Shown here one piece after another: positions 5,967 to 50,139 of a stretch of DNA of 64,000 nt (the stretch's first letter is position 1; every line of letters begins with the position of its first letter). Under the pieces are notes generated by a model, which saw nothing but the letters and a program-made list of their open reading frames with translations, searched no databases and was not told the origin of the DNA. The translations under genes were made by a program, and so were the position numbers. Location of the stretch: the NCBI GenBank assembly GCA_021307315.1, contig JAJSPD010000069.1, positions 176,063 through 240,062 of the forward strand, in the 5' to 3' direction. The stretch is from Bisporella sp. PMI_857. Its lineage: Eukaryota > Ascomycota > Leotiomycetes > Helotiales > Helotiaceae.

Positions 5967-6443
5967 TCACACCTCCAACGCTTCTTCTTCAGGGCAAGTC
6001 AGGGTCTGGCGGTGCGAGCGTACTAGCCTTGAGAAAGCATCCAGGGCATCGCTGACGGCATTAAGAAGGTGGTTGTTATCATGAGGAGGCGTAGGGAGCG
6101 GAACATCGAGACGTAAAGAGTCTTCGATCAGAGAATGCGTGGATGAGGATGGGCCATGACGTCCCAGCTCAATATCGGAATCCGACGCTTCTCTTTCAGC
6201 TTGTACACGCAACTTTTTTATTAGCCCAAGGTTGATATTTCGTACTGTCACTACAGCTCGGCATGAAGGAACGTAAGACATACTCTGAATTGACCTGATT
6301 GCGAATCTACCATTCATCCATAAGTTGATAATAGCTACGAGAATTGCAACGTGGCCGAGCGCCAAGGCTATCGTATCACCAGTTGACACTGTATACTAAA
6401 GTATGCAGAAATAAAATTTGTTGGTAAAAGACTACACACGCAT
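5967..6443 (-). CDS. Small single-pass membrane protein, copy A (DALDAFSR-tail subtype)
   Basis: Exons 6443-6440 (ATG plus C), 6388-6284 and 6199-5967 give 113 aa. Intron 1 is GTGTGT...ATACAG (51 nt) and intron 2 is GTATGT...TACAAG (84 nt, with GGGCTAATA before the acceptor); both are phase 1. The protein starts MLSTGDTIALALG, continues into one hydrophobic helix (residues about 8-27), then a basic stretch (RFAIRS), an acidic linker (SDSDIELG), a Ser/Pro-rich region, and near the end NAVSDALDAFSRLVRSH. Copies B and C share this order and tail motif. By the positive-inside rule the tail should be cytosolic. Without the 4-nt exon no ATG precedes the helix, which supports the model. Function is unknown; I know of no named family that fits. 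Confidence 0.72.
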
Positions 6444-8073
6444 GTTTGATCGTGGGATATATCTAGAAGCGGTTCTTCAAGAGTTTCTTAATGAGCAAAA
6501 AATGACAAGGTAGAATTAAGTGAAATTATGTAGCGCGGTGGTTACGTTATTGAGTTGGGCAGGCAAACAGAAAATTGAAGACGATTAATTGGTTGGGGAA
6601 GTGGGTGGTGCTCATGCGATCCCCATGGTGGTATTGGTTGGTCCAGGACAAGGGATCGCTTACGCTTCCCAAAAGATTTAAGCTAACTCCGGCAGATTCT
6701 CGGAATTTTGATTGTCTACAGAATAGACCCGAATACTTTTTTTTTTCACTCTGTTTCACGTTATAGAGCTTGTAACCTCTGAGACTACTGTTCGGCATTG
6801 CACGCTTTGTGGCTACTGTAAAGCTTCGCAAACACAGAGCGTGCTGCAACGCCTGGGAGCATTCCTGCTCTCCACATGTTTTTCTGTTTTGTTGGGATAA
6901 ATTCTGGTCAGAAGAAAATTTAATCAAAAATTTAACAATATCAAATTAGAGTAACGTCAATAGAAGAAGATATGTATGGTAAGGAGTGGAGGTGAACGAG
7001 GATGCGCTTGGTTCGTTAGAGCCTGTTAGTGCTTTAGCTCCGTTTTCCAATTGTTCTTTTCCATCTCCAAGGAAAAAGCTCAAACGACAGGTTCTCAGCA
7101 GCGTGATCTTTTAGAGACGACCTGCTGAGCATTCCAGAATTGCCAGTCAGGAAATTCTAAGATGGAATACCAGGAGCCACAGGCGAGAGATGGGCTTTCA
7201 ATGAAGAGAGTTTCGGACAAGACATCTATAGAAGAAAGTTTACAGCTAACTACATCGGGTATTAATTGGATGAATACACGCCAGGGGGTAAGAAGCCAGC
7301 CGGGATTCTATGCGTGGGTATCACGCGCCGAATGGATGCGGTGTGGAGATCCATAAATGGATGTGGGGCATACTACAGGTAGCCACTCCACAACTACGTA
7401 CAACCAAGACCAGTCAACAATGATTTACCCTGTTTCTGAGCCTCACTGCTTCAAGTCGGGCGAACTGATGGTGCTGTATACAGTCCAGAGAGAGTTTTTG
7501 TATTCAATTAGAACAACTTCTTCAGCTCCCGCCAACTATCTCCTGGCTCGGTGAGCTTGAGTTGCTTTCGCATTATAGAATTTGTTTTTAAATCGCTGTT
7601 CCCACATCGAGGACATCCTGATCATAATCATCTTCGTATTCAAAGTCGAAATTACACGAATTAGCTGGCTCTCAGAGTTAAGTCGATTTAGGGATTACCC
7701 CCCGGCCATCAAGAACCCGAGTCGTGATCCAGCGGTGATCCAGGTGTGCCTTTTGAGGTGCGTTGCTACCAACGGCTCCAGCCTGCATCCTGGTTGCGCT
7801 CCCGCGGCTGTCGCCGGAGGAAGCGGGCACAACTTTCGTGGCTTGGCGTGCAAAACTTGGCCATATATTATCACATAAACGTAAAAGACCGTTCCTCGTA
7901 ATAAACCAGCTTTCTACAAATCGATGCAGCCGCACGTAAATGTGTGTATTTCTCAATTCTTCAGAATTTATTCCCTTTGAACGTGTCTTGACTTCGCCCC
8001 ACCAAACTCGAATTTCTAAGACTAATAGTGCTAAAACTGGCTCTCCATCCTGCAAGAACAAGAACATGGAGGG
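6444..8073. other. Gene-free interval between copies A and B
   Basis: No gene is supported. The frame at 6547-6927 (-) and several short frames at 7162-7878 (+) have no motifs. A frame at 7678-8067 (-) just downstream of copy B is hydrophobic and basic at its start, but cannot be joined to any initiator by plausible splicing. Confidence 0.45.
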
Positions 8074-8508
8074 CTATTGATGAGAACGCAGTAGTCTCGA
8101 AAATGCATCAAGAGCATCACCAACGGCGCCGGATATTTGGCTACGGTCAAGTTCACCTATAGGTTCCGGAGGCAGCGAAAGTCTTAATGATACATGCGGC
8201 GATTCTTCTGGAGTCGAAGGTTGGGCAAGAAATGGCTCATTTATGGACGCAAGTTCAAAATCGTCTACCGCTATTCGTACCATCAGCAAACTTATTCGTA
8301 TGTTAAGAATGAATTGTATCAATAACCCCTTTGAGATAACATACCTCTTCTTGATGCGTGGTTTCTAAATTTCCACATCATGTACACGTTGATGATGGCT
8401 ACAAGTATTGCAACAAGGCCAAGGGCCAGTGCTATTGTGTTATCACTCGACACTATCTTAATATGAGCCTTGTTAGATATATATCCATCAGCCAATTCAC
8501 TCACACAT
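8074..8508 (-). CDS. Small single-pass membrane protein, copy B (DALDAFSR-tail subtype)
   Basis: Exons 8508-8505 (ATG plus T), 8452-8345 and 8270-8074 give 102 aa. Intron 1 begins GTGAGT and ends AGATAG with ATCTAAC upstream (52 nt); intron 2 begins GTATGT and ends GAATAG (74 nt). Both are phase 1. The protein starts MLSSDNTIALALG, has one helix (residues about 8-29) ending in a basic segment (WKFRNHASRR), an acidic linker, a Ser/Pro-rich region and the tail GAVGDALDAFSRLLRSH, nearly identical to the tail of copy A while the linker has diverged. This pattern suggests selection on the two ends. A TATAAA lies 78-83 nt upstream of the ATG. The best-formed copy of its subtype; function unknown. 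Confidence 0.78.
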
Positions 8509-9142
8509 TTCAATGGTAGAAATTTTGTATGTTCGAAGTGAAGTTCTCTCTGGATGTAAGGTAAGGCGGAAAAGGTTGCCCATTGTTTATATGGAGTGCT
8601 CGGTTAAAATAATTAGTGACCCAACGCATGCAAGGCAAGGGTCAAGTCATTCATTTCGGTCCCGTTATATCGTGCAACCGAGATGGCGCGCTAGGGAATC
8701 GTAGGAAAACCACAGAAAAACCATTATAACTAATTAGTCTTTCCATACTATATTCGGTATCATAGGGCAATCATTCGCTTTTTTTTTTTTAGCAGCTATG
8801 GCCTCACACATAGTTTCTAGAACTGTTTACTGCGCTTTATCTGCGAAAATTTTCGATTTGGATATTCTGTATTCCGTGACCAGGCTTCAAAAGACACTAT
8901 TCCGATGTTTCATCACTGTCACGCCGAAAGGCAATATTCTCTTGGGCCGCCAATTAAGTCATGTTCGTGCTCCTCTATTTGAACCCAGGCTCGAAGGAGC
9001 GATGTAAAGCCGCTCTATTCTGGGAGATATTCTCTATCGTCAAGGCAGACCGCCCGTCTGCATGTCAGAGAAGAAGGTGCGCTGGTGTGGCTGAATGAGG
9101 ATTAATGTTAAGTGCTGACGTTATGATAGGGTCAGGTTTTTA
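8509..9142. other. Upstream flank of copy B
   Basis: Apart from the TATA box at 8586-8591 no feature is supported. A 69-codon frame at 8798-9007 (+) has no recognisable content. Confidence 0.4.
8586..8591 (-). promoter_or_regulatory. TATA box of copy B
   Basis: TATAAA on the minus strand, 78-83 nt upstream of the copy B start. Copies C, F and G carry a TATA-like motif at nearly the same distance, which argues for a duplicated core promoter. Confidence 0.45.
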
Positions 9143-9446
9143 GGGGAGTGATACACGCCCTCCTCCCCTTACTATACGTCCTCCCCCCCTTGTCTTTCGT
9201 CAACTTCCAACTTTAACTTCAACTTTTTTTAAAAAATATATACTAATATGGGGGTCAGACACCCCCCCAACCTTCCAACCCCCCAGAAACTAACGCTAAC
9301 GCTAACTACTAACCCTAACCATTGACTTTATTTACTTAGCAGTTGAAATTATACCTTTTTTTTAAAAAAAATCACATGATACTTTGCAAAATCACGAGAA
9401 AACAAAAGAAAAAGACAAGGGGGGGAAGGACGTGTATCACTCTCCG
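9143..9446. mobile_element. MITE-like foldback element with telomere-like core
   Basis: The left end reads GGGGAGTGATACACG and, after a 19-nt insertion, CGTCCTCCCCCCCTTGTCTTT. The right end, reverse-complemented, reads GGAGAGTGATACACG then TCCTTCCCCCCCTTGTCTTT. The arms are therefore imperfect terminal inverted repeats of about 35-45 nt around a core of roughly 200 nt with no reading frame. A clean target-site duplication is not obvious. The core includes CTAACG/CTAACCCTAACC runs at about 9285-9320. Size, inverted ends and absence of coding fit a non-autonomous DNA transposon; the superfamily cannot be assigned. Confidence 0.5.
9285..9320. repeat. Interstitial telomere-like repeat
   Basis: Degenerate copies of CTAACC (CTAACG twice, then ACTAACCCTAACC) lie inside the foldback element. 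They resemble TTAGGG telomeric repeats in reverse complement but are too few and too divergent to be a telomere. Confidence 0.4.
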
Positions 9447-10532
9447 TTTTCTAATGAGTTACGATATTTGGCTTTACATTCAGCCCTGACGTTGCTAACG
9501 ACGGATAAGGATAAGTTGCTGACATTTATGGTGGGTGTGGCCACACCAGTCAGCCAGTGAATCCTGACTGACTCGAAAATGGCCTGAATAGCCATCAACT
9601 CCCACTAAATCTCATTCGAAAATTCCGTTATTGAACCCATCTTTGGTATTACCAGTAGAATCTGCTTTTGAGTAAATGAAAGGTATCTTTTCAATCTCCT
9701 AATTTACTTACCACCCTTCTTGTGCGTATATATAGCCTTAATGAAGCAACGATACTATGGAACTTCAATTTCAACAAACAATAGCGGGCTAGACTTAAAT
9801 CTACAAAAAAAGATCAAATCGATCGTCACCAACAAGGAATCCCACAGATTAGCTATGGAATACGGTCAGGCTCCGGAAAAGCCTCAGCAGGCTACAAAGC
9901 CATCTGTCGTCGGAAGAGCGTTCTACTGCTTGACTACAAGCCATTCGCTAGCCTAGTTGAGGTGGCTGCAGAACGATCATGGGCGGCGCATCCGGTAAGT
10001 AATTGCTGATTGGCTATGATCTTGCCAAGGCTTCCAGTGAGTTTACTACATGGTAGATGCCGCCTACGGAGTTCGGCAGGTTCGATTTTTCCCTGATAGG
10101 AACCCACTACCCGAGTCTCACCTATTAATCCGAAGTAAGAGCAGTTACTTGCAGCTTTTCTGGGTGATCCCGTCAGCCGTCAGCCAACCCATACCCTTTG
10201 CAATAAAGAAGCACCCACGCTCGCCACCCCCTTCCCCCCCCCAACCCCCCCCTTTTTTTTTTTTTTTGGAAGATGATTCTCTCAAAGCATACAGTTTTCT
10301 ACGAAGTCAAAATACAACCACAGCATTAATACGAAAAGAATGCTTGGACTTTCGAGTTTTCAATAACTCGTTTGTCATTTTATCGCAAGGAGTTCCTTTA
10401 ATACAAGGCTGCAAGGCTCGGATTGCTGGCAATATATCTATATAAATTAGCTTTTCCCCTACAAGGCAACCAACTTAATTATGAAAACGTGTGCTATGCA
10501 AGTATTGCGTTACTTTACTATTATTATTGTGA
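9447..10532. other. Gene-free interval with polypyrimidine tract
   Basis: No gene is supported. A long C-then-T tract occupies about 10226-10267. Frames at 9720-9956 and 10050-10445 (+) are interrupted by this low-complexity tract and show no motif. Confidence 0.4.
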
Positions 10533-11222
10533 TTATTGTTGCCACATACACTGTATTTTCTTTAACTTTCTTGTTCGTGTCTTCGTGCTCTTGACTTCAA
10601 TGCATTTTGCCTCCACCATCACGAGACCTGCATATATGCCTTTGACTTCCGCAACCAACTGCTCTTGAGAGATAGGACGAGTTTCGGGCTACATAGCTAT
10701 ATCTGTTGAACAGGCTAGGTCTAAGGATCATACCTAGTCTATTGTAGGCACCGGTAGGCACCGGTAGGCAACGGTAGGCAACGGTAGGCAACAGTGTGAT
10801 GACATGTGAGTATCGTACCTCTATAAGTAGAGGGATTATCTCCTGTAGTTTAGGTTCTATAACCTTCAGCAATTGATACTTATTTGCCCTATACTCTCTG
10901 AAGGCCACGTGACTTTCTTCCTCTATTTGAACAATATCACATATCTCCTCGGCTTGGCCTGCATGATCTTGCATAGGAGCTGCTGGTCTACTACTTAAGA
11001 TGACTGATGGAAAAATGAACACAATTTTTGACGCTTCAAATGCTCGAGCACTTCCGAAAGGCGTATTGTAAGCGGCTATAGAGTATTGCTGGGGAAACGA
11101 ATCAAATGTTGTGTTCCGATTGCAGTAGCCGATGCCGTGGATTCATATTTTATCGCCATAGTGAAGTTCGGGCGTCGATAGCCATTCGGTATTGGACTAG
11201 GTTGTTGAGGCACTCGATCCAT
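10533..11222 (-). pseudogene. N-terminal fragment of an Est1-type DNA/RNA-binding protein family
   Basis: Two exons can be read. The first, entering at about 11083 after a TTTCCCCAG acceptor, encodes AAYNTPFGSARAFEAS, then a helical stretch with EEESHVAFREYRANKYQ and ending LQEIIPLLIE; it runs to about 10819. The second starts after TATGTAG near 10700 and encodes PETRPISQEQLVAEVKGIYA followed by GLVMVEAKCIEV before stopping at 10533. The VAEVKGIYAGLVMVEAKCIEV block is one I associate with fungal proteins carrying an Est1-like domain, from memory and unverified. The family continues for several hundred residues; here it ends after about 20 unrelated residues. An upstream stretch (ATG at 11222, MDRVPQQPSPIPNGYRRP) looks related but cannot be joined in frame. 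Most likely a truncated, broken copy. Confidence 0.45.
10744..10793. repeat. 10-bp tandem repeat, five units
   Basis: GTAGGCACCG appears twice, followed by two copies of GTAGGCAACG and a final GTAGGCAACA. On the minus strand the array lies inside the intron of the Est1-type fragment. Confidence 0.8.
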
Positions 11223-14200
11223 GTATCTACAAAAGCTGACACTGTTTCCATAGATCAAAGCCATCATTGAGTAGGCAACGTATATAGAAGCTGGCATATG
11301 ACCATAATGAAGCTTGCAAACCGTCAATTTCATCGTTGGTAGCTGAACACGACTTTTTTTATCTTCCTCCCAAGGTTGGCTAGTAGCCGTCACCGCTCTG
11401 CTCAGGCACTACTCACCCTCGCCTCACCCTCTACTAAGGTTACTCAGTCAAGATCCTGCCCTCCCTTCCAGTGACCAATCATGATTTTCTTATCATTCGG
11501 TTTTGCTATGCGAAAGTTGTCCACTTTATACAACTGTATACAGGAGGGCTAAGTCGGCAACTACGGAGCCTAAATAATATGCCCCAAAAATACATCTTTC
11601 TAATCTATATTATATCTCTTACTAAATTCTTATAGATGATTCTCGTTCACTGAACTTACTAATATTTTTCGGAGATATTGACTAATTAATTGTAACACTC
11701 AAACAAAAACCCCTCAAGCTCCCGTTTTAAGCCAAGGGGTTCTCGACTCTGCAGTGATTGGCCACTCTACTATGCGTTACAAACTCTCGCCTTGTGAATT
11801 CATTTCTCTGCAACTCTTGCATCTTAATCACACTTAAACCTAGATATCATTAACGCAATATTATTATTCTTGTCGCTTGGCCAAGCTCGTGTCAAAATCT
11901 TTTCAAGGCTATAATAAAATAAAATACTATCTTATACTAGAGATTATCGAGATAAAAGTACGATGGATTTCTCTTTTACTATTCAAGTAGTGTTAGTTTT
12001 AATGTTGAAAATTCAGCTTGCTCTAAGTTCTACTAATATGGACGTTAGAATTTGAAGAGTAGACAATTTTAATCTATAAATTGATATAGGAATGCCCTAT
12101 ACTTTAGTACTACTATCCGGAGTAGTTTTGGTTTGAGTGCAAAATTTCGGCTTACTCTAAGTTTGAGTAGGCCGAATTTGTGTTTTTTAAGCCGAAGTAA
12201 TTCGAATTGTGTTGTTATAAGCCGGACGGCCTTGGCTTAGAGTAAAAATAAGGTACCTACCCTGTCTTGTAGTATGTGAAAGTGTTGTACTTTAGAAGAG
12301 GTCACTTTGAAGTATAGTCTTCCAAACCGACACACTCGCCATTGTAGTACTCCGAATCTGACAAAAATAAAGCTAGGGGTCCCAGAAAATGCCTCTCCTT
12401 AAACTTATCGCGCAGCACTGCTTCTAGGAGACCGTGCGTGTTGCCACAGCGTGGTGTCCTATAAGGAGCGCTGTAGTGAGAGGCCGAATTTGGCCCTGGG
12501 TGCTAGCGTTTGGAACGGGCAAAATTCGGCCCTTTATGCTGTGATGTTCAAGCGGCTAATGAGACGATGCCAGAACATTGTTAGTTCAAGATTAGAACAG
12601 TTTTAAAAGACGATGAAGCTAGATTATCAATTAAGCTATAAGCATAATACATCGTTCTATCTGAACAAAAAAGCGCCAGCTGTATCATTCCATCTGAGAG
12701 AAGCGTCAAGTGTCAACTGTCAACTGTATACATCTATTTCACAAAACTACTATTCTCGCTCAAGTTACGATTATTTGCACTAGCTGGTGAAGGGAAGTCG
12801 CGATTCGTAAATATGGGTAAATCTTCAAACTTGCTAATCAAAGAGCAGCACTCGGCAAATATAAAGTGTCTGGAATTATGGGCATAAGCTGACCCCAATT
12901 TTCATATAGTGCCAGTTGTAAAATAGCATCATAATTGCGCGATTAACGTGCACAAGATAGGATATCAGATATGGGCCTTCTATAGAAGAATATCATCCTG
13001 TAAGACTTTTGAGTTGTTAAGTTCGACTCGATTACAGAACTAAGGTAGGTTCTTGGAGTGAGTTTATATACATGGGTTGATACAATAGTGTGACGCACTC
13101 TGTTGCATCATTACATGTGACCATAATTCAACACATCCCTTTTACATCTTAGAACCAAGGCCCTTGATCTTCCACCAACAAATAGCCTGCCCCTCCAATA
13201 GCCTTAGTCCACCTCGTTAGTCAGGATAATCAGTCGAAGTGTTGATAGTCAACCTGTAGAGGCTTCTCAGTAGTCATCTGCCGAAGGAATGAGCGTGTGC
13301 GTGAAGTGAGAGATTAGCTAATAAGAGATAGTCGAGTTGTGGTCTTCTCATAGCCGTGCGGAGCAGCATTCGAATTTAGTCTAATAGATGTAATAAGGGA
13401 TTACCCCAGTTCCTAGGTAAGCTCTCGGTCTTTCTTTCGAAGTTGGGCTTGGTGCTCTAGTGGCTGTAATAATATCCCTCAAGTATATATGTCTTTGTGG
13501 CGGAGGTGCAGGCAAAATCTCTAGCCTAATAGCATGTTCGTCCTGGCAGGGTGGGGCTCTGCGATCAAGCGGATATCTATCCTAGTACCGCCGAAGGTCA
13601 AAATGGAAGGTACCGACTACTAGTAAGGGATGCGCTGTCAGTTTGGAGATCATCACATGGACTTGACTAATGAAACATATCACTTACATCTGTTTCAAGT
13701 TCAGAACTCCCAAATGGCTTAGAGAAGCATGATCTCCCGAGTTGGTAGGATACCCAACAAGAACAGGACTTGTAGTGGCAGTAGAATATCCAAGAGTAGT
13801 AAGATATTTAGAAGCAGTAACATCTCTGTCCTTTTGCGATGGTTCTGATTTCGGCGAAGTGATTGATGCCCGACAGAATGGCCGAAAGAGCAAGCTATTG
13901 AATTGAGGATGGGTTTTGCAGTAGCAGCGATCAATCTTAGCTCAGCATACATCGAGATATTCTGTGGAGGAGGTTAGTACTGCTGTGCATAGCTACAGTA
14001 AAGGCATCGAAGGGCGGAGTGAGTACCTGTAGCAGGAGTCATCTTGTATGGGAGCCTTAACGAGATTGTTCGACGCTGGCGCTTAGTGAATAGTAGAAAG
14101 CGAATCATTGTCGTGTGGGTTGTAGGTTGATGCCTGTGATATCCATGTTGTATGCAGTCGCTGAGTCTGTCGTCAATATTGTGTGCAGTCTTACAATCGG

Positions 14201-14431
14201 ATTGCCACATAAAGAGACTCCTCCTAGTTAGAAAAGATCAGCCTAGTTAGCCCCTCTCACTCACTTTCACTACGCCAGAGCATTGCACCAAGCGCCGCCA
14301 CAACAAAGCACATACTGTGATACGCCCGGGGTTGGCCCATCCTCCCGCCCACGCCCTCCCTCCCTCTCTGCTTTAGCGTGTGCATCTAGGTATACGCCGT
14401 GGTCAGTCTAAGCAGTAGGAGGCTGCTTCGA
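11223..14431. other. AT-rich, gene-free region with decayed repeats
   Basis: Between about 11.4 and 13.68 kb there is no reading frame of 60 codons on either strand, unusual for this window. A degenerate block of about 45 nt recurs (near 11988-12030 and 12121-12165), and a near-perfect hairpin lies at 12141-12179. The sequence looks like old, mutated repeat DNA. Frames at 13684-14210 (-) are leucine-rich but cannot be made into a supported gene. Confidence 0.5.
12141..12179. repeat. Hairpin-forming inverted repeat
   Basis: The left arm AAATTTCGGCTTACTC pairs with the right arm GAGTAGGCCGAATTT across a short loop, with one or two mismatches. Related GGCCGAATT words recur at about 12480-12535, suggesting remnants of one repeat family. 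Confidence 0.5.
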
Positions 14432-14842
14432 TCAAACCACGTTTGAGTTCGACGCCTGTGAGCTCGGAACCGAAGCTGTCAGCCTCCTCCGAAGGAACAG
14501 AGCTTCTAACACGGCCTTTGCAGACATTTGCCACATCCTCACATAAGACCCTTCTTCATCACCATCCCTCGCTTGGAGACACTCGTTGTCAGACAGGCGA
14601 ATGGAGAGCGTCCCCAGCTCCCCAAGCACGCCAACCCCAGCAAAACACCCGGAGGCGATTGCCCAGGTGCGAAGGGGAGCAATTGGTTCTTCCGCCCCTA
14701 TAGCCCTCTGAAGCAGAGCGAGTATAACCGAAGCCCCAAAAATGGGAAGAGTCAGGATGGCGCTAAAACAGAGGAACGCACAAAGGTAGAGCACAGGTTT
14801 CTTAAGCCTGCGGAGAAAAGATAAGAATAATTTGAGAGCCAT
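14432..14842 (-). CDS. Two-TM small membrane protein (first of an adjacent pair)
   Basis: A single-exon gene of 136 aa is read from the ATG at 14842, which follows a good context (CACAATGG); the frame remains open further upstream but without a likely initiator. A TATATAA lies about 60 nt upstream. Residues about 15-46 form a long hydrophobic segment (KPVLYLCAFLCFSAILTLP) and residues about 58-80 a second helix (SGCFAGVGVLGELGTLSI), followed by an acidic stretch and a basic, Ser-rich tail. The gene at 15280-15717, same strand and 437 nt upstream, encodes a protein with a similar first helix (KPVLYL / VPVCIVGLYL, then S-x-I-x-x-x-P) and size. I do not recognise the family. Confidence 0.55.
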   Translation of the reverse strand: MALKLFLSFLRRLKKPVLYLCAFLCFSAILTLPIFGASVILALLQRAIGAEEPIAPLRTWAIASGCFAGVGVLGELGTLSIRLSDNECLQARDGDEEGSYVRMWQMSAKAVLEALFLRRRLTASVPSSQASNSNVV

Positions 14843-14898
14843 TGTGCTATTAGGAGATCGCAAAGAAAAGAAGAGAAGATGAAGAAGACGACCGGAAA

Positions 14899-14905
14899 TT
14901 ATATA
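14899..14905 (-). promoter_or_regulatory. TATA box
   Basis: TATATAA on the minus strand, 57-63 nt upstream of the start of the two-TM protein at 14842. Position suggests a core promoter. Confidence 0.4.
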
Positions 14906-15279
14906 TTTAAGCGTTCCATAGGCAGTCGTTTCCTCATTCACTAAGAAGGCGGGCGCCGTCAGGTTCCTGCCGCGAAGGGAAGGAAGGAAAGAAAGAAGAT
15001 GGGGAACTGCCATGTACACCGATATCAGCCACTATTTGCTCATTGATAAAGCCTCATTAGGAGCGTTAGAATATTATTTTCATGCGGTACGCACTAAGAC
15101 AGGGACATAGCATGAGGTACATCACATATTGGCTACCAGATCTTTATCCTCTACCGAACGGTAACCTAAGGCCACTAGAGCACTGCCTTTACCATTCCCA
15201 TTAGTTCCAAGCAATCTCTTCCGCAGAAATAGAGTAAGGCAAGACTATGCGACGAATCTGTTGATGCTAGGGTGGAAGT

Positions 15280-16434: not shown

Positions 16435-16856
16435 TTATTGTCTGTGATTATATCGGTAGTTATGCAAGATCCTTGACACGGCTTCAAACACATCACCAAG
16501 CGCCTGGTGCACCTGTGGTGTTGATACTGGTGAAGGGCTATCAACTAATGGTACTAGTTGAGCATCAGCATCGTGCGGTGTTGAGTTTAGAATTCCCATT
16601 TCAAGATCTGTTCGCATGTGTTAGCAAGTGATAATAACAACTGTACAGAGTCATCAGAAGGCGGTTCGTATCATAGACCATACCCCTAGAAGCGATTGTC
16701 TGCCTACGAGTGAAGAAAATGGCGATGATGGCCAGAAGTGTTGCCGTGAGGCCGAAGCTCAAAGAAAGAATATCGTTGATCTCTGTGTTGACAGGTCAGT
16801 ACACCAGGGCAACCACCAGAGAGATAAGATATTGTCGAGAAGACTCGCTTACGCAT
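16435..16856 (-). CDS. Small single-pass membrane protein, copy C (diverged DALDAFSR-tail subtype)
   Basis: Exons 16856-16853 (ATG plus C), 16782-16684 and 16607-16435 give 91 aa. Intron 1 is GTAAGC...CAACACAG with TACTGAC as branch (70 nt); intron 2 is GTATGG...GCGAACAG with TGCTAAC (76 nt). Both are phase 1, exactly as in copies A and B. The leader is shorter (MQINDILSLSFG); the helix LTATLLAIIAIFF is followed by TRRQTIASR, an acidic linker starting DLEMGI, a Pro/Ser/Val-rich middle and the tail HQALGDVFEAVSRILHNYR, a diverged form of the ALDAFSRLLRSH tail. A TATAAG lies 79-84 nt upstream. Function unknown. Confidence 0.72.
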
Positions 16857-16934
16857 GATAGTGAATACTCGGGTATCGAGCGTTTGATCTTGGTCGACGT
16901 TGTGATGCCATGTTTGCGACTTGGAGACCAACTT

Positions 16935-35472: not shown

Positions 35473-35811
35473 ATGTGTATGACCCCTAGCTTTCGCCCAA
35501 GCTTTATTACCCGTCACGTACTAACGCCACAAGTAGTATCTTCTAGCGACACCATAGCCTTGTCGTGTGGCGTCGCATCTATCAGCCTCGCCATAGTGAC
35601 CATTTGGCTAACTTGTACAGTTCGTCGTCAGTCTCATGGTATGATTCCTTCTGCTATTTTGTGTATGTCTCTTCTGATACAATATTCAGGCGACCTCGAG
35701 AGGACAAACCCTCATCCTGAACCAGATTTATACAGGAACGTGATGATGGAGGAATTCCATTCACGGAGATGGTGGATGAAACACAACGGATATCGTCCAA
35801 AGACTTGTTGA
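35473..35811 (+). CDS. Small single-pass membrane protein, copy D (RRWWM-tail subtype)
   Basis: Exons 35473-35476 (ATG plus T), 35537-35638 (102 nt) and 35690-35811 give 75 aa. Intron 1 is GTATGA...CAAGTAG with a perfect TACTAAC branch (60 nt); the tandem acceptors AAG and TAG would differ by one residue. Intron 2 is GTATGA...ATTCAG (51 nt). Both are phase 1. The protein reads MLSSSDTIALSCGVASIS, one helix to about residue 28, a basic stop (TVRRQSHG), DLERTN, an acidic/Pro linker and the tail VMMEEFHSRRWWMKHNG. Copies G and H share this tail. In the unspliced frame the helix is preceded by unrelated residues, so the microexon model is preferred. Function unknown. Confidence 0.76.
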   Translation: MCMTPSFRPSFITRHVLTPQVVSSSDTIALSCGVASISLAIVTIWLTCTVRRQSHGMIPSAILCMSLLIQYSGDLERTNPHPEPDLYRNVMMEEFHSRRWWMKHNGYRPKTC

Positions 35812-37340: not shown

Positions 37341-37611
37341 ATGTGCATGTCCTTTCGTTCCAAGAATCTATCACAGGTTGAGCATCATGTGCTAACTTTG
37401 AAGCAGTGTCTTCCAATGATATCATAGCCTTGTCCTTCGGCCTTGCCTCTGTCATACTGGCTTTAGTAACGATTTGGGTCACTCGTATAGCTCGTCGTCG
37501 TTCTACTCGTATGCTATCTTCAGCTAGTATTAGTTGCGTTTCTGCTAATACTTTATAGGGGACCGTGAAAGACATCTCGCCCACGAGCCACAGTTATACG
37601 AGCTGGCATGA
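37341..37611 (+). CDS. Small single-pass membrane protein, copy E (YELA-tail subtype)
   Basis: Exons 37341-37344 (ATG plus T), 37407-37508 (102 nt) and 37559-37611 give 52 aa, the smallest copy. Intron 1 starts GC rather than GT (GCATGT) and ends GAAGCAG, with TGCTAAC as branch; this is either a GC-AG intron or a splice-site mutation. Intron 2 is GTATGC...TTATAG with TGCTAAT. Both are phase 1. The protein starts MLSSNDIIALSFGLASVI, with one helix, then RIARRRSTR, and ends EPQLYELA. Copy F ends KPYELA, and the two introns 1 share the word CTTTCGTTCCAA, so E and F are the closest pair. Function unknown; whether this copy is spliced correctly is uncertain. Confidence 0.6.
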
Positions 37612-39173: not shown

Positions 39174-42100
39174 CTGCTTGCGGACCTTATACTAACAAAA
39201 ACTTTATGCTTTTACCAGAGTAACAATACCGTCTTTTACAAATTACTTTATCTTTTTACTGTATTACTCACTTTACCTCAAAAAAAAAAAAAAATTTAAC
39301 TAAAGTACGAAGCAAGCATAGATGGGCTACGGTTAATTAAGATATAAAAGTATATGATTTCTTGTATAAACTTAGTACCAGCGGAGATAGCATGGTATGA
39401 AACGCATTGTGCGGGTGGGTTTTAAGGGCCGAAACACTGCAATGTTGTGACATTGCTTCCTATGTACGATATGGAATCATGAATTTCAATTCCTGTAGTT
39501 CGAGCAAAGACTCTGGTCACTTAGATTCCATGCAAGAGAATTCTATTTGGTAGAATACAGTATATGGAGGCAGTATTTACGTAAGGCAAAATAGGAACCG
39601 ATATGCGAATGGATGCAAGTATTAATATGGAGGTGCGGAAGTGAGGATGGAGGTGGAAAGAAATAAATATCAAGGTGTTGAGATGCGCTGCGGGGTTCAA
39701 CAGAATCGGTCAGGGCATCACCGTCGCCCACTCGTGGATTGAGCAGAGATCGCAAGGCTGGCGAAAGGAGGTTGCAGAAACTTGACCTAACAATTCGAGT
39801 CGGAGCGAAGGATATTATTGAGGATATTATGGTGAACAAGAACTAAGCATATACGCGACGACTTGGAAAAGATGGCATGCGTGAACCGTGGAAGTACCGG
39901 ACAAAGGTTGAAGAATTATGTAGAACCGGTGAATGAGAATGGACGGATTGATGACTGCCCCAAATGCAAACAATGCGGACCACTTATTCCACATGTGCCC
40001 GGCGTTGAGAAACAAGGGATCTAGAAACTTCAATTCCTTCCTTTGCTTGAACCGAGGTGGGAAACTAATGAATGCGTATCCAGTCAATTTGAGGGTATGG
40101 TTCCTTTACGGATGAACGCCAAGGATCATTAACTGAGTGCCAGAGACAGACTACACGGTGCCAGAAGCAGTAATGAACCGGCTATTTCCGACCCTTCTTG
40201 AAAGACTGGAGTAGGAATGCGCAAGATTTCAGAGATATTCCTCTGTGGGCAGACAGAGTCCAGGGAGAGCACAATTTCTTTGTGTTAGCCGGATATGAAA
40301 TTGAGTCGAAGAGAACTATATCATCGGAATATAGAAGATTGTAGGTTGGATGTTGGTGGTGACCAGCTGCCAATGGCTGATTCATCTTTGGTCGAAGGAG
40401 GAAATGCTAGGCCGGCAGGTGACGAATCATTGGCGGGCAAGATTCTAGATGAACCAGCAAGAAAATGGGCCTCACCCATATTGCTGAGCCATCAAGGGAT
40501 CGAAGGTTGAGTGTGCAAACTATGGCAACGTGCACCCTAGGGGCATCCACCATTCTTGTGGCAAACTTGGTGTTGCGGAGCATCAAGTAGAGCAGTGCGA
40601 GCGATTGTGTTGATCGTTTCCGGGCCCATTTGTCCCCACCCCCTCTGCCTTGCATACACCAATGGCAGATATATACACAATCCAATTGTATCACCGTTTC
40701 CATGGGTCTGTTTTGTTGACCGATATTCGTGGATGAAGAGCGAACAGAGATCTATTAGCAGTTAGATTGCAGGTCCATCATGATTGCTCTGAGAAGTTGT
40801 CTACATAGTGAATTGCAACATACAAACCTCTCGTCATTTTAAGCAGATCCCATTTGCCCCAGGCCTAAATCCAACAATCAGCCATATGAATCATGGCTGC
40901 TATCAAGGCGCACCAGCTGTCTCGCACAATATGCGGATGACGGCGTAGATATTGTCGAGCAATTTACATATATAGGTGGAAGAGGCAGTCGACTTGACGG
41001 ACATCTCGAGCGGGGCCACAGCCCTCTACCTTATAGTAAGTATTCGCGTCGTGTCGGCGCTTGAAGGAGATAGCTTACTGATTACCGCGTAGTCCTTGAT
41101 AGGCTTTTTCGGCACGTCTTTGTTAATTGTTGCGATTACAAAATCTAGTCACAGGGTTGGCAATGCAACTACGTACTATTGGAATACGTGGAATTGTAGT
41201 CTGGATGAAAAAGCGTGGGGAGTGGTATGGCGCGACAGAGTTGTTGCTGTCCTCGGTTAATAAGCCAAGGGGTCATTGTTGTTGCTAGCAGGTGATAGTG
41301 CAGTTTTAACTCATCATTTCGATTAACCGCGCATTCCACATCAAATTGCATAGTTCGGACTATCGAATTGACTCAAGTGTTGATTTTGAATGCGACTCTC
41401 ACGCTTCTACCTTACACGGCAATCAGTCTATGGAAACCAAGCAGCGAATCAGTTCCTGCTTGCTCAAGCAAAGTTAATATTCAGGCAATACTAGCTATCT
41501 ACCAGATACAATGCGTCAGTGCCAATATCCAGCAACCAGTTAGACATAGTGTCATGAGGAATCTACTATTTCGCAGATTCTTTTGGTGCGAATTCTCTGG
41601 CCCAATTCTGCATATTCCGCTGGAACCCGGACAACTGCGTTTATTGCTCGAGCTCAACGAGCTCAAGGTGTTGTTCTTCCAAAGGCTCGATCTCCTTCAA
41701 CTCCTTGTGGGGGTTTCGGCCGATCTGGGCAAGGTATCACCCCACACTTTGCCTTGCCAGTCGGGGACTTGTGAGAGCATTGGTGTGGTGCTTGATGATT
41801 ATCGCTTCTAGTTCGATGTGCTCTGGCCTTGTACTTCATGCCTTGCCAATCCTCTCCCTACACCATCCTTATTGTTGCTTCGTAACATATCTGGTTGGCG
41901 TGTCTGCCGCATGTTGTATCAGTTCGACAAAATAACTCGACAAAGTCTGAGCCTTTCTTGCAGCAACGTCTCATAGAATTCTGGAGCGAAGCCTCTGTAA
42001 GCTTTTGGAACGCTGAATAGCAATAACTTCCTATCCTGGTCGCTCTGATATTTATTCAGACTTGCACACATCTTATTTGTTACAGATTTCTTCTTCCACC

Positions 42101-45100
42101 GCGCTCCCTTTGCCCCAAGCACTCACCTCCTCACGGCATATTTTGTAGATTCGACATATGTGACCCAAGCTCATTTCGGATGCTCCAAGCGTTCGTCTAT
42201 TCTGCGAATTTATTCTAAGAATATGTGCTATCAGCTTTTATCGATTGAAAGCTATTTGATAGGTGCTTTGTGTGTTTGTTGATGTTGTAGATTGATGTCA
42301 TACCAGCTTACGCTCCCAATGGTGCTCCTTCCGGCGGAGGTCCGGCTCGAGTTTTCAGGAAAATAATAAACTTTTAACCAGAACATTGACTCGCAGAATC
42401 TTGCACAAGATAGGTAGTTCTTTTGTGTTGTTTTTCTCTTATAGATCGCGTGAATATCCCGAGTTTACCTCGCAGCTTGCATTGGCTTTCGATTGGGACT
42501 GGGATACACATGGAGGGACACAAAGGGGCCGAAAATCCAGTGCAGTACGAAAGTGGTGAGGAATCTGGCTTAAATAAAGGTGATGTGTACAAGCACTTCA
42601 GTGAATTAATGGGAAAAGATAGGGTCATAATTCTAATATTGCAAAAGTGTGTCCACACCATCTGTGCTCTATTGCGCTCCAAACCTTGTGTTGGTTAACT
42701 TCAGCCAGCTTCCCTGGGGCCAATACTGATACACCCACGACTCGCATCAGGCCGCCGCATCAGGCACATGAAACCTTGTTCGAATTTCCTTACTTTGTCA
42801 TATCTCTTCTTAGCAAAGAGGAATCCATTGGTTCTCCCCCCTCAAATCTCTTCTGATCGCCCATCTAACTTCTGTGCAATTATAGCTCCCTGGCTATCAC
42901 ACCAGCTTTCGTGCCGTGTCGTTTTCAGCGTACGGCACGTATTCTTCTCATAGCCACGGCGTCTGCAAGTCTGGTATATCGAGTGGTCGAGTGGGATTGT
43001 TTCGGGAGGATACTGGCAGGGGACATCATAAACTCCCTGTCTACAATTTGATGGCCCAAGTGGCCCTAATTACCACCACCACCATTCCAACGATCACTTT
43101 GCAAACAAGCTAGGGCATTCCTGGATAACGCTACGCTCGGTGAACAGCTCCTGGCCACTAAACCTGCAATGGCCAAGACTGAATCGAGTGTACTCGAACT
43201 CCTATGCACAAGACATATCCGCAAACGTTCATGTTAATCTATGGTGATTAGATCCTGCGCTGAGCGTCCCAGACTGGTTCTCGTTGTCACCGTCGTGAAC
43301 AGTGGCCGAAATAACTGAGCTTCATATAGTGAATGTTTAGGAGGCTCTCATATTGCTACCGTCGCAGGGGATATGTACACCGTGTAGGATCCAGTGTATG
43401 CGGCACCTGACTCGTTGATTGAGGGGTTTTACATTGAACGTTACACAGAAATCTTACTCCGGGGATACGGGGAGCTCTGACAATCCTAAAATTCTGATGG
43501 TGTCTGTCAGCCATCCGATGCATTACCTTTTAGACTTAATGCAAGTTGGAAACTACCAAGTCATGTTTTGGGCCTCTAGATTTGCTCTCAAACACTTGAA
43601 AGATCCATTATGGCCAGGAGAAGAATTAATAGACCTGGGCCGCTCAGGGTCAGCTTTGGATAATAATTCCCGGCGTTGTGTTGAGGAGGAGCATTCCCAG
43701 GCTGCAATATTGAGGCCACACTACAGCCTTCTATTTTCGCACTACCCCCCTGAAAAAAAACAAAGAATGCAACTACAATAGCCTAGGCCGTCGGAAGCCA
43801 TTCTATTCCATTCCGCCCCTTCGCCCCCACCGCGCTTTCACGCGTTTTTTGGTAGATCCTTGACCCACTACAGTGCTTTGCTGGGCGTGGGTATGGTAGG
43901 GTCGTATTAAGGACTTATATCCAGCCTTATGCTAGCCAACCACAAGCACATCCACATGTTGGTTGTAAATATTATTTCTTGTATTGCAGCCCAAGATCAT
44001 ATTTACCCTGTTGCACCGTGTTCGTTGTTCTGAAATCGCCTACATCTCTCTATCTCTGGACTCTGTGTAGCGGGAGTGAAATACAAAGCACTAAATAGGC
44101 GCGGACAGTTTTCACAGTCAGCAGCGGTCGTGGAATAACTTCCCAGGTGACCTCTCGATTACAAATACCGTGGAATATGCATCGGATATTCAAGTTCACG
44201 AAAAAGCGAGCTCCTACCTGATACTCGCTTTACACAGGAATTATTTTCAAGTGATATCATCCACGTGTCATGTGGAATCACCTGTCATAACACGGTGGTG
44301 GTAAATCTATAAATTACCCATGCAGTTCACTGTTATTTCCAGGTACGTTTTAATTCCTCCTGGCAAATGTAAATCTATACACTAACATTAAAAGAACAGG
44401 GGATTTTGGAAGCTAAAATCTGATGTATCCATCCTTCAAGTTCGATAATGAACTTCGAGTACAACAACAAAGGCCATAATAAAGGAAGTTCACAAGGAGG
44501 CGTACGGATAGGGAGGTCTCAATCGAAGCGATAGCAAGTGGCAGGCTGGGAGAATACTTTGATGCTTCAGTCGTGAAGGGAGTGAAGATGTGTTCTAGCT
44601 CACGTCGAATGCGACTTCAATCTTTGCAGTTTCGCCATTTACATTCTGGCTAGCTTGTATTTTCAGAGACAAAAGGCGAATTCTACATCAGCCATGGCCA
44701 CTGAACACACGGCAGTAGATACGGCATGCAAGGACGGAGTCTCAACCAGCAACTTCACGAATGGCGGGTTGAGCAACGGTCTGCACTTACCCCAGAATCT
44801 GGAGCTCAGAAGCTCTGCCAATCTTGGAGAAGCCCAACTATAATGTCTCGGATTATTACGAGATATTTTAATACGCAAGTCTGCTGAACTTCTTTGCACT
44901 GTTGAGCTGAAAGCCTCATAGACTCTGATTGCAGAATAAATCTTTGAACCATACTCCTGTTCGCTACGGTTGGGAAGCAAGAGACTGCCTCGGAATCTTT
45001 GTAGGACAACCAAAATATCCTCTCCTTCGAGGACCTCTTTATCTCTCCTAGACAAGAATACTGACTCCTTGACCTCCACGGAGAGGTGTCTGCCGTTTGA

Positions 45101-45986
45101 TTCAAGGTTCATACTACATATCTGATAATGCGATGTGATACGAAGATCTACTGCATCGATGGCTTTGCAGCCTCCTTGCGAGAATTTTTAACAATATCCG
45201 GTATCGTAAATCCACACACGGAAAACAGGCTTGTATCTCAGCGGTGGACGAGGTTTGTTGCGCCAAAAAGAAGTGTGCTTTGACGTAAAGTGACGATTTG
45301 GCCCACACTTTTACTGAATAATCTGGACCTTCACTTCCTCATTGTGCGGTACGTGCGCTCGATTCCGTGCGGAGTCGGTTCAAGTGTGTCAAGTGCGCAG
45401 CACCGAGCTGGAAGCTTCTAACATCCCATCATTGGACGAAGGAATGCTTAGCAACACGGGGGGAGGGCTTATCCCTGGACCGCCATCCCCCTCTCCTTGT
45501 CCGGATGTCGCCTTCTTGTAGTGCACACCGCCAGGGCCATTACATCTACTTTCCTCGCGCAACTTGTAATATAATACAGGCCGCACCAAGAGGCTTTCCC
45601 ACCGGACCAGTCCCCAATCTGAGACAATGCCAAACAAAAGCAACAAAAGGTTTTTCGTTTTTAGCAGGTACCGCATCCACACTGTTGCAATGTTGCTTTT
45701 GTCCACGTCGGTCAATACGTATCTGCAATGCGCCATACCTCAATCACAATCAAGAATTTTGGCCTGCAAAACTCGCTCTTTACCATGTACGGCGTAGCGA
45801 ATATCCACAGGGCCAAATATGATATGCTCTCTTACATTTCATTCATCGATCTTTGCTTGGGCTGCGGAGGTGGATGACCCGGGACGGTTGAGCCTTGTGT
45901 TTCCTTAGGATGCGTTGCCTGGCGGAATCACGAATAAATCGATTGACAACCTGTGGGTGCGGCGATGTTCTCTCCCTTCAAAAAAG

Positions 45987-45993
45987 TATAAAT
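45987..45993 (+). promoter_or_regulatory. TATA box of copy F
   Basis: TATAAAT lies 81-87 nt upstream of the copy F start codon, within the same spacing as in copies B, C and G. Confidence 0.5.
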
Positions 45994-46073
45994 CCTCCTT
46001 CCCCTTCCGAATTGACGCTTCTCCAATATTCTACTCCTTCAGTACTTTCGAGAAACTCAATAGAGATCTGAAT

Positions 46074-46343
46074 ATGTGTATGTTCTTTCGTTCCAAACTC
46101 AGATCTTGAACTCCATATGCTGACCAACACACAATAGCGTCTTCCAGCGATATTATCGCCTTGTCGGTTGGACTTGTATCTGTCAGCCTCAATATAATAG
46201 CAATATGGGTTACCAGAATTCCCTGTCATCATTGCCAAGGCATGCTACACTGTTATCCAGATATGAACTCCTTCTTACACGTCGCAGACGACATCCAAAA
46301 AATTCATCATCACGAACTTCAAAAACCGTACGAACTGGCGTGA
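46074..46343 (+). CDS. Small single-pass membrane protein, copy F (YELA-tail subtype)
   Basis: Exons 46074-46077 (ATG plus T), 46138-46239 (102 nt) and 46288-46343 give 53 aa. Intron 1 is GTATGT...CACAATAG with TGCTGAC as branch (60 nt). Intron 2 would start GC (GCATGC) and end GTCGCAG (48 nt). Because 48 nt is a multiple of three and contains no stop, retaining it gives a 69-aa form, so both products are possible. The protein starts MSSSSDIIALSVGLVSVS, has one helix, a weakly basic segment with CHHC, and ends HELQKPYELA. Its exon 2 length matches copies D, E, G and H exactly. Function unknown. Confidence 0.7.
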
Positions 46344-46940
46344 CTGGGGAGCCTCAAGTTTGAAGGTGGCAGATGATCGGAACGTTGATAAAATACGGAC
46401 TTCTGGGGTTGGGTTTACATAGAGACGTGGAAATATGAGGTGTTTCAGAAAAACGATACTGCTTCCTCCTGGAGTCCGCGAAGAAGGATTCCATATCACA
46501 GACTCAGGAGCAGAAGTCTGCTGTCTCGTTTGTTGCAAGATTGTGATGGAGCAATACCTGGACTTGTGTGAGGTTTCTTACCAGACCTGTTTTTTATCTA
46601 TGCGTTTCTCTGCATCCTCTATAAGAAGTTTGCCTCTAGCGAGAGCAAGGTATCATTGCGTGTCTCATAAAACATACCACAGCGTCTGGGACATAGGCGT
46701 ACCATAACTTAGCATTCTATTTTATCACCCTGGCAAGGAGGATACAAAGGGGCTATGAACACTTCAAGACTTCGCATGAATCTCTCCATCAAAGTGTGCT
46801 CCAGCGAGCGGGAGAGACTCCAGTGCCTTACTCAGTGCAGCAGGAGACACAGTGACAATAAGGCAGCAAGTTTATGTTCCGGATTCTGGGTGCTTTGAGG
46901 TTTCCAATTTCTGTTATTCTCGCTTCTATTAGATCTGCTT
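46344..46940. other. Gene-free interval between copies F and H
   Basis: Separates convergent copies F (+) and H (-). No feature supported. Confidence 0.4.
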
Positions 46941-47289
46941 TCATGGCCCATCCCCATTCCTCATCCATAACCTTCGCAACTGCAATTCTTCAATCATCAT
47001 ATCTGCCTCCATAGTCCTCTTTACGGCTCGTCCTCCATGAATATTTCCTCCATGAAGCCTTTCAAGGTCTCCTACAACTTCTAGTTAGAAGACAAAGTAT
47101 GCTGTCGGGAGAATATAGTTACGAACTGTGGGTCTCCAGCCTAGCAGCTTTAGTGACCCAAATTGTCGCCACTGCTAGTGTTATAGAAATGACCCCGCAT
47201 GACAAGGCTATCACATCGCTCGAGGATACTGTATATGCGTGAGCAGTGACTTATTAGTCATCAAATTTACTAAAATAGCACCTACACAT
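46941..47289 (-). CDS. Small single-pass membrane protein, copy H (RRLWM-tail subtype)
   Basis: Exons 47289-47286 (ATG plus T), 47228-47127 (102 nt) and 47071-46941 give 78 aa. Intron 1 is GTAGGT...TATACAG (57 nt). Intron 2 is GTTCGT...GTTGTAG with TTCTAAC as branch (55 nt); the donor is weak but is the only one that keeps the conserved phase-1 join to RDLER. The protein starts MLSSSDVIALSCGVISIT, has one helix to about residue 28, KAARLETH, a Gly-rich linker and the tail DMMIEELQLRRLWMRNGDG, as in copies D and G. This is the only right-hand copy on the minus strand. No frame of 60 codons reveals it, so standard annotation would miss it. Confidence 0.72.
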
Positions 47290-49681
47290 TTTCAGCAATG
47301 GCAACCTTAGTACGAAATTATATTCAAGTGTGATTGAGTTTATTGGGATCTTTTTGCTTGTCGAAGAAGAAACTCAGACAAGAAGTCTTCAGAACTCTAG
47401 TTGCAAACCAGATTAAAGCTTGCGGCCTCTTATACTTCCTGAGAAGAGGGCCCCGAGAGACATCATCAACCCGGGAAACCATTTTTGGATCATGACCAAT
47501 TATACAGCGAGAAAATGCTTCCACCAACGACATTTGGCACACGGAAGTACGCGAGGCTGCATCCTCGCAGATATACAATCATCTATTGCCGCATGCATTG
47601 GGGCGATGCAACGAGGCATACCATGCCATATTCAGCGGCTTTTTGTGAATAGGGAGGCGGCAATTTATTGATTGGAACACTCCGCCATAAAAATGGGGCA
47701 TGTAAACGGGTCAGATGTGGCTGAACAGGGCCGCTGGAAGAGGTTCATAGAAACGGGCAGACACTACCCTGCGAGCCCTCTTCTCCACGAAATTCAATTC
47801 GCCACGAATCATCAGATTTTTGTGGGGAATAATACTGAAATGAATATGAGCTGAGTAAAAAGATTGGATTTTAAGAATATATGTAAAACCTGGAAAAATC
47901 GGTGATGGTGACCTCAACATTAGTTGAACATTGAGTTGCAGGTACGAACACTTCTTCCTGCAGTTGCTTATCCTTGATTTAAGTGTCATTTCGACAGGTT
48001 TGACTGCTGCAAAACGAGCTACATACTGTTGTCGATAAGGAGCTACATACAACAGAAGGGGCAACGAGGTAGCGACGACGAGGTCGAAATGGTTTTCAGA
48101 GCTGTGGTACAAATCTCCCGGCCAAATTACTAAAGTCAAGATACATACCTTAACTTAGGCACTCACCGCCTGCCTTAACCAGGAGCGGGGTCATACAACA
48201 AACGACAGGGCACCCATGTATGAAAACTCGCTAATTTCCTGCTGGTTCGTTGCTCATGGGCATATGCTAAACCAATGAGTAGTTCTTCGGACCACTTAAG
48301 TCCAAGAAATGAAAGATCAAATCCGAGAAATGATGTTAGTCTTGGAAATTGAGCCTTTCAAACCAAAAGAGCGGCAGACTTGAGGCACATATGATCCAAT
48401 TTGAACCAAACTCCAGCTTCTAGATCTAACAACAGTTGTGTTGCGGGGATAAAATCCAAGTGTCCAGTTTCGATACCCCTCATGCAAACGGCGATCATGA
48501 GTGCAGCGCTTGGGACCCTTTTAGTTTCTGACAGAGCTTGGCATCACCACTCCAGAACCAGGATGCAATCTATCTTACGAGAATATATCTATAGTTATTG
48601 TTGTTAAAATGACTTCCTTAAATACCTGTCTAAAAGGAACACGGCGACGGGTGTGGAAGGATGGGTGGTGGAGGATGATCTACCTGTCGTGCAGTGTGCA
48701 GTAGTAGTAGTAGTTTTATTACGCCCGGCTAAGCCTAGAGGCCGCAGTGTGCAGTATATAGCAGTGGTGACTGGCGGAACTCGCGGGCATGGGTCATCGA
48801 AAGGCTAACCGGAAATGGCTCACTCACTGAGTGTGCCATTTCCGTTCACATTTCCCATTTCTCTTTCAACATATGCATCCACCTTGACCGCTTCTAGATA
48901 CAGGATTCAGCATCTCGGATTGATCGTTTTCAACTGCGAGTATACTGTTTGCCTAGAGTCATTAGTCCTACAGAGCAATTCATCTCGTCCTTCTGTTCCC
49001 TCTCCCCCCTCTTCGCGCTGTGATGTGTGCCGAACCCATCGATAGCTCTGATAGTGATGATTTTGCTCACGACGCATTTCGATTCATGCTATACAAGCCA
49101 GAGAAAGTTACACAGGGTTGCTGTCCCCAACAGCACGCAAATCAAAACGTGGTGAGTATTTCAGCCTATGCTAAAGGTCCAACCCCCTGCGCCACTGTGC
49201 CAAGTAGCCCCCTATCGCCTAGGTTCTTCGACGGGAGATAGACTTGTGAACTAGTCTGTTGGATCCAGCGGCTTGGGTTGGGCCCAATCACGTTACGATG
49301 GAACTACACCATATCCAGACTCTCGTCACGAAACAGCCATTCCTTTCAACTGATTCATGGCCTTCTCGGTATTTTGACATGCATACCATCAAACTTCAGT
49401 ATTGTTGGCATATCCTGTTGTAATGGGCCACGACCATGCAAGTAGGAACGATAGGCTCTAAAAGAGAGTGAAAGGGGAGGCTTTGTAACCGTGGTATATA
49501 TTGTCTAAGGAGCACGAAGGAAAAAGAGCTCGCTAATAAACCGTGTGATGCTAGCGTGGGTGCCTAAGGCTGCGACTCCAACAGGGTAGCATGAATGTCA
49601 TTGGTAGATCTCTAAGGCTTGGCATGCATGCAGGTCTAGTTGATGCGTCAATCAGCCCGTAGCTTAGCAAGAGGAACAAGA
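47290..49681. other. Gene-free interval
   Basis: About 2.4 kb with short frames only. A small TAG microsatellite (AGTAGTAGTAGTAG, about 48703-48716) is followed by TTTTATTACGCCCGGCTAAG and flanked by two copies of GCAGTGTGCAGTA (about 48692 and 48744), possibly a small insertion. No gene supported. Confidence 0.4.
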
Positions 49682-49688
49682 TATAAAA
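49682..49688 (+). promoter_or_regulatory. TATA box of copy G
   Basis: TATAAAA lies 82-88 nt upstream of the copy G start, consistent with copies B, C and F. Confidence 0.5.
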
Positions 49689-49769
49689 TGTTCACAAGCT
49701 TGCTCCCTAATTGCGATCGCAAGAAGATCAACCAGGTCCTTCTAAATTTATTGACTTTATCATAGCAAT

Positions 49770-50139
49770 ATGTGTAGGCACTGAATATTGAATGTCACAA
49801 ACCAAGTGCTTATTCTATGGTCACACAAGCAGTATCTTCCAGCGATATCATAGCCTTGTCTTGTGGAATCGCCTCCATCAACCTTGCAGTTGCTACGATA
49901 TGGCTCACGCTTTCATCTCGCCGTCAATCGTGTAGTACGTATTATTGAGACTCAACTTGTATGTTGCTTCGAATTGACATCGCGCTACAGGAGATCTAGA
50001 ATGCTCTCATCTAAGTTCCAAGCCAGGGGGCGATCGTGAGATACGGATACAAAGACAAGGAGACATAATGATGGAGGAGTCCCACTCACGGAAATGGTGG
50101 ATGGGGAAGAGAGAAGCTACTTCCAAGCGTTGTAGTTAA
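49770..50139 (+). CDS. Small single-pass membrane protein, copy G (RKWWM-tail subtype)
   Basis: Exons 49770-49773 (ATG plus T), 49833-49934 (102 nt) and 49991-50139 give 84 aa. Intron 1 is GTAGGC...CAAGCAG (59 nt); intron 2 is GTACGT...GCTACAG (56 nt). Both are phase 1. The protein starts MLSSSDIIALSCGIASIN, has one helix (about residues 8-28), the stop-transfer SSRRQSC, then RDLE, a longer polar linker and the tail DIMMEESHSRKWWMGK. It is closest to copy D. It lies 429 nt from, and converges on, the intact HET-domain gene. Without the spliced model no frame of useful length is visible, so this copy would be overlooked. Function unknown. Confidence 0.76.

Follow-up and report, generated by a model that had tools for sequence, protein, structure and literature searches.

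Eight clustered copies of an undescribed family of small, predicted single-pass membrane proteins in Bisporella sp. PMI_857

A locally expanded, undescribed family of small proteins is encoded in the terminal part of a 240,062-base contig of Bisporella sp. PMI_857, a member of a genus that its database record places in Helotiales. The stretch analysed (C251:176063-240062, 64 kb, hereafter the window; the genome comprises 55.6 Mb in 284 contigs) holds eight intact-looking genes and one broken copy across 44 kb (copies 1-8 and ninth copy, Table 1). The kind is loosely known, that of small single-pass membrane proteins, and is not put forward as a new kind of system. Our tentative interpretation, the most economical of those considered, is that the products are single-pass proteins with the N-terminus outside and the C-terminus inside (N-out/C-in), which would probably associate by way of their helices and, as membrane adaptors, present tails that differ from copy to copy on the cytosolic side.

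A profile of the 27-residue core was scanned over both strands of the 240-kb contig, with the reversed contig as null. The eight copies scored 54.5-79.5 and a ninth site 29.5; remaining sites reached at most 19.8, and the reversed contig at most 22.9. Chance is excluded because leave-one-out profile scores (44.9-74.9) exceed the reversed-contig best. An earlier note on this DNA had listed eight loci, all of which are present with the same first and last bases, so that its eight-copy observation is confirmed. Its length range of 52-113 amino acids (aa) becomes 52-109 aa on re-splicing, the acceptor of copy 1 being uncertain. The ninth site, also matched by blastn with copy 8 (43 nucleotides (nt), 79%), has an in-frame stop and lacks a GT directly after the candidate ATG plus one base, and is therefore regarded as a broken copy; its ends were inferred from splice-like sites.

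All eight genes share one plan: an ATG plus one base, a phase-1 intron of 51-70 nt, an exon that encodes the predicted membrane helix (the helix exon, 99-108 nt), another phase-1 intron of 48-96 nt and a tail exon of approximately 17-73 codons, stop counted. Fourteen of the 16 introns have a GT donor, and GC is found in intron 1 of copy 5 and intron 2 of copy 6. At the protein level, several details of the order of leader, motif, helix and tail proposed in the note do not hold. Copy 3, whose core is the most divergent of the family, carries QIND in place of the SSSD leader. The IALS-x-G motif is exact in five of eight copies and reads IALALG in copies 1 and 2 and LSLSFG in copy 3, and instead of a single conserved tail type we found three kinds of tail.

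The pattern of divergence between copies points to selection. Within the helix core (26 codons), the ratio of nonsynonymous to synonymous substitution rates (dN/dS) was 0.05-0.20 in nine of the ten pairs among copies 4-8; for the tenth pair (copies 6 and 7) it was incalculable, synonymous sites being saturated. In each of the 11 pairs tested, half or more of the differences fell at third codon positions, and amino-acid changes were fewer than under neutral simulation (P 0.0065 or less). Random codon-level divergence, which the earlier note had set against its own proposal, was thus not seen. Mean nucleotide identity of the helix core among copies 4-8 was 69%, whereas the 60-nt flanks were 22-38% identical, which is chance level. 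From the low dN/dS of the helix core and the conservation of exons against flanks at chance level, the eight loci look like real genes under selection.

The 25-nt intron ends of copies 4-8, splice signals included, were 24-52% identical with two exceptions at 68%, namely the beginning of intron 1 between copies 5 and 6 (37345-37369 and 46078-46102) and that of intron 2 between copies 4 and 5. Flanks at chance level and low intron-end identity indicate that the duplications are old, and the near-saturated synonymous divergence between copies likewise indicates an old family. At the DNA level only the 99-bp helix exon repeats, in four copies, and the repeat scan (14-base seed) detected no inverted repeat that reaches 60 bp. 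On these grounds, and with the flanks at chance level, a mobile element or a recent duplication was rejected. No telomere repeat motifs were found in the window.

Protein queries of the whole genome with the copy 8 core, copy 2, copy 3, copy 7 and the family consensus gave matches confined to this cluster, in agreement with the local expansion claimed previously. The consensus retrieved all eight copies and nothing else, in a search that scores the best first-look candidates only and that very diverged copies could escape. Among 5.8 billion proteins, searches that cover annotated proteins sharing 5-residue words, and which unannotated relatives escape, returned nothing beyond the four Bisporella proteins with public models (Table 1) and one metagenome sequence. 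The latter, P0005, is a protein of 54 aa encoded on a 940-base contig and matches the copy-1 tail at 45 of 53 residues. Given an old family and a single fragment outside this genome, relatives would be unannotated or lost elsewhere.

The absence of a named family, as had been proposed, is supported by the domain searches with the eight proteins. Pfam gave five weak matches (best E 0.086) and NCBIfam six (best E 0.0091), each in one member and, judged by these E-values, none amounting to a family assignment, and a profile of copies 4-8 had no match in the PDB. The literature searches listed no title or abstract describing this small-protein family. A scan of viral contigs with copies 4-8 gave no relative, and a viral origin was rejected. 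A loose DNA pattern matched one site on another contig (C215), which was dropped since the frames there have no membrane helix after the motif.

Each of the eight proteins has a single hydrophobic segment (Kyte-Doolittle 19-mer maximum 1.94-2.62). The N-terminal flank has a net charge of -1 in all of them, and the 15 residues past the helix contain 2-7 lysines or arginines, with a net charge of 0 to +5. One membrane crossing in N-out/C-in orientation is predicted from these features, in line with the external leader and cytosolic tail suggested earlier. Within the helix, positions 9, 13, 16, 20, 23 and 27 form a heptad-spaced ribbon that is occupied by a small residue or Asn in 47 of 48 cells, G13 being invariant. 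On a different helix face, two overlapping ribbons have 3-8% small residues, and the mean residue volume is 93 cubic angstroms in the small-residue ribbon compared with 152 at the remaining helix positions. The column-permutation P for the best of seven ribbons was 0.00064 when GASTCN were counted as small and 0.00094 for GAST. Such a heptad-spaced strip suggests helix pairing, and the strip may be a helix-helix interface.

The tails differ by subgroup. Taken as helices, those of copies 1-3 show strong amphipathicity (moment 0.57-0.67; P 0.0002 or less on shuffling), and those of copies 4, 7 and 8 have a common motif containing M and W. Six tail pairs were tested for codon-level constraint, which was significant in the copy-1/copy-2 pair only; there, 12 of 14 differences fall at third positions, indicating purifying selection. 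A C-terminal helix is predicted in the tails from AlphaFold models of one member per subgroup (the public protein of copy 2, and copy 7), both with a long N-terminal helix and a C-terminal helix.

Public Bisporella sp. PMI_857 gene models were found for four of the eight copies. For copy 7 the model is identical to the splicing derived here. The other three agree except for 25 extra N-terminal residues in copy 2, 58 in copy 3, and intron 2 of copy 1, which is read through. No public models were found for copies 4, 5, 6 and 8 in protein profile searches whose query alignments contained their sequences. An in-frame ATG upstream of the conserved one and before any stop is absent in six copies and present in copies 2 and 3. 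TATA[AT] is located at -83 to -88 in five of eight copies (P 0.009 against background). The TATAA of copies 2 and 3 (-83 or -84) lies 8 nt ahead of the start of the copy-2 extension and within the copy-3 extension; hence the conserved ATG, not the upstream one, is the more likely start in both.

Table 1. Genes of the small-protein family and the broken copy, in window positions
Feature	Position	Strand	Length (aa)	Exons	Remarks	Public model
Copy 1	5967..6443	-	109	6443-6440, 6388-6284, 6187-5967	amphipathic tail helix (predicted)	B0O99DRAFT_600350 (P0002)
Copy 2	8074..8508	-	102	8508-8505, 8452-8345, 8270-8074	amphipathic tail helix (predicted)	B0O99DRAFT_692998 (P0001)
Copy 3	16435..16856	-	91	16856-16853, 16782-16684, 16607-16435	amphipathic tail helix (predicted)	B0O99DRAFT_693000 (P0003)
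Copy 4	35473..35811	+	75	35473-35476, 35537-35638, 35690-35811	tail with MMEE...RRWWM	
Copy 5	37341..37611	+	52	37341-37344, 37407-37508, 37559-37611	short tail, YELA end; GC-type donor in intron 1	
Ninth copy, broken	44238..44342	+			membrane-helix exon relic between copies 5 and 6; in-frame stop 44310-44312	
Copy 6	46074..46343	+	53	46074-46077, 46138-46239, 46288-46343	short tail, YELA end; GC-type donor in intron 2	
Copy 7	46941..47289	-	78	47289-47286, 47228-47127, 47071-46941		B0O99DRAFT_638118 (P0004)
Copy 8	49770..50139	+	84	49770-49773, 49833-49934, 49991-50139	tail with MMEE...RKWWM; convergent with HET open reading frame 50571-52748 (-)	

If the proteins act as membrane adaptors, each would cross the membrane once with its N-terminus outside, and the helices would pair with those of siblings through the small-residue strip. 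Paralogues would mix, giving assemblies that differ in their cytosolic tails, and these tails would recruit different cytosolic partners. Several observations weigh against this interpretation. Past the helix, copies 1 and 6 carry a net charge of 0, and a rough insertion score is unfavourable in copies 1, 6 and 8 (0.20, 1.23 and 1.42). Basic residues occur in the N-terminal extensions of the public models of copies 2 and 3, and with these extensions the topology call would weaken. The ribbon test was post hoc, the pattern having been noticed beforehand, and a plain helical-moment test of the strip gave only P 0.051. As to the tails, no amphipathicity is seen in those of copies 4, 7 and 8, and codon tests did not reach significance either among these three (P 0.06-0.19) or for the copy 1-3 and 2-3 pairs (P 0.35 and 0.15); the tails of copies 5 and 6 comprise just approximately 17-18 residues and end early at YELA. 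The AlphaFold models are monomers of low confidence (mean predicted local distance difference test score, pLDDT, 60.2 for copy 2 and 68.8 for copy 7, from 5 and 4 sequences), and that of copy 2 used the N-terminally extended public protein.

A bolder version, unlikely in our judgement, is a mix-and-match toolkit in which eight paralogues with one pairing strip would form many homo- and hetero-oligomers, each combination presenting its own set of cytosolic tails, which would gather its own signalling partners. If true, filamentous fungi would hold a lineage-restricted system for signalling or recognition, new to science and built from proteins of fewer than 110 residues. Should helix pairing hold, the family would provide a small natural collection in which to study partner choice by single helices, and the cluster would offer a direct test of whether local duplication yields new membrane adaptors. 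Very small spliced genes are easily missed, as is evident from the four copies for which no public model was found.

The nearest rival is a regulatory micropeptide of the phospholamban type, that is, a small subunit beside one larger membrane protein such as a pump, channel or transporter, with the strip facing that partner and not a sibling. The size, the single helix, its conserved face of small residues and the constraint acting on it fit this equally well. However, a cluster of eight diverged copies whose tails differ would be unusual for the subunit of one pump, there is no known partner, and no duplicated partner open reading frame (ORF) was found in the window. We consider this reading somewhat unlikely. 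All-against-all comparison of the window ORFs of at least 30 aa returned family members (with overlapping or antisense frames) and two stray pairs only; toxin-antitoxin tandem pairs were rejected on the same comparison, as no partner ORF is co-duplicated beside the copies.

A Pfam scan of the window ORFs identified two HET ORFs and one NTPase of the NOD-like receptor (NLR) type. The HET ORF at 50571-52748 (-) is uninterrupted (726 aa), contains a full HET domain and lies approximately 430 bases from copy 8. At 59251-60214 (+) two ORFs overlap, and the second has an NPHP3_N NTPase match to profile positions 1-84 of 164; this predicted NLR gene is either split by introns or broken. Genome-wide, scoring 150 of 729 HET candidates gave at least 150 matches and scoring 150 of 264 NPHP3_N candidates at least 152. 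Several HET and NPHP3_N matches on contigs C241 and C263 are in mirror order with equal scores, suggesting that the assembly includes a duplicated (haplotype) contig.

These neighbours raise the question of whether the family acts at membranes in fungal cell death or allorecognition, as executors or adaptors that a nearby HET or NLR protein would activate through the tails. Copy 8 is convergent with its HET neighbour, and such systems typically involve small genes that are clustered and lineage-restricted. The chance expectation per 64 kb is, however, 0.17-0.84 HET and 0.17-0.30 NPHP3_N (low values from matches, high values from candidates), and with both scattered through the genome in such numbers, two HETs and one NLR nearby are weak evidence. 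Tail profiles, which score their own copies at 55-80 on the 240-kb contig, had next matches there of 23.5 (reversed null 27.0) and 25.3 (reversed null 25.0), none clearly above chance. No effector domain was found by Pfam in the eight copies, and selection on the helix between copies is purifying and not diversifying. Of the 125 window ORFs with 88 aa or more, 79 were scanned with Pfam and gave no gasdermin family, and two gasdermin-candidate ORFs of the window had no match in the PDB. The HET, NACHT and gasdermin link raised in the earlier note is not supported, location was rejected as evidence for a cell-death association, and the idea, with little in its favour beyond that location, is distinctly unlikely.

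A poison-antidote or drive system, with a membrane form and a soluble tail made from one gene by skipping of the symmetric helix exon, is highly improbable. The exon is phase 1-1 in all eight copies and skipping keeps the tail frame open in six, but it gives an immediate stop in copies 7 and 8, which counts against a dual isoform, and symmetric exons are common. That the loci are non-functional chance or decaying fragments of one old element is scarcely credible: four copies for which the searches found no public model and one plainly broken copy would fit, but third-position-biased divergence, common splice positions, the TATA[AT] motif in five of eight copies and the lack of conserved flanks marking an element speak against it, and the codon evidence already contradicts it.

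The proteins can be set beside several known systems. Effectors of the HET-S/HELLP/SesB type are NLR-linked fungal cell-death proteins with C-terminal amyloid motifs. Pairing of an effector motif with a motif of the NLR is described in the literature (PMC9815663). The present family resembles them in being fungal, in lying in a region with NLR and HET genes and in having a conserved C-terminal segment. It differs in that none of the eight proteins has a HeLo, HeLo-like or similar effector domain in Pfam, the tails are not clearly shared with another ORF of the contig, with no clear repeat of them at the N-terminus of a neighbouring NLR, and those of copies 1-3 look like amphipathic helices.

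The gasdermin fold belongs to proteins of a few hundred residues. Fungal gasdermins include RCD-1 (PMC12881547). The likeness is a relation to membranes in a fungus, whereas the proteins described here have 52-109 residues, one membrane helix and no gasdermin match in Pfam (eight copies), and the two modelled members are predicted, at low confidence, as two helices only. The wtf spore-killer proteins are multi-pass and use alternative starts. They too are clustered, lineage-restricted, small membrane proteins, but the Bisporella family has one helix and no predicted alternative product that all eight copies conserve.

Phospholamban and sarcolipin are single-pass micropeptides of tens of residues, with one helix and a short cytosolic part. 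The Bisporella proteins likewise have tens of residues, one helix (8/8) and a short predicted cytosolic part, a general feature that is no proof of membership, and no sequence relation was found in the Pfam scan of the eight copies or in the PDB with the profile of copies 4-8. Compared with these micropeptides, the family is fungal and consists of eight clustered copies with three kinds of tail and two phase-1 introns.

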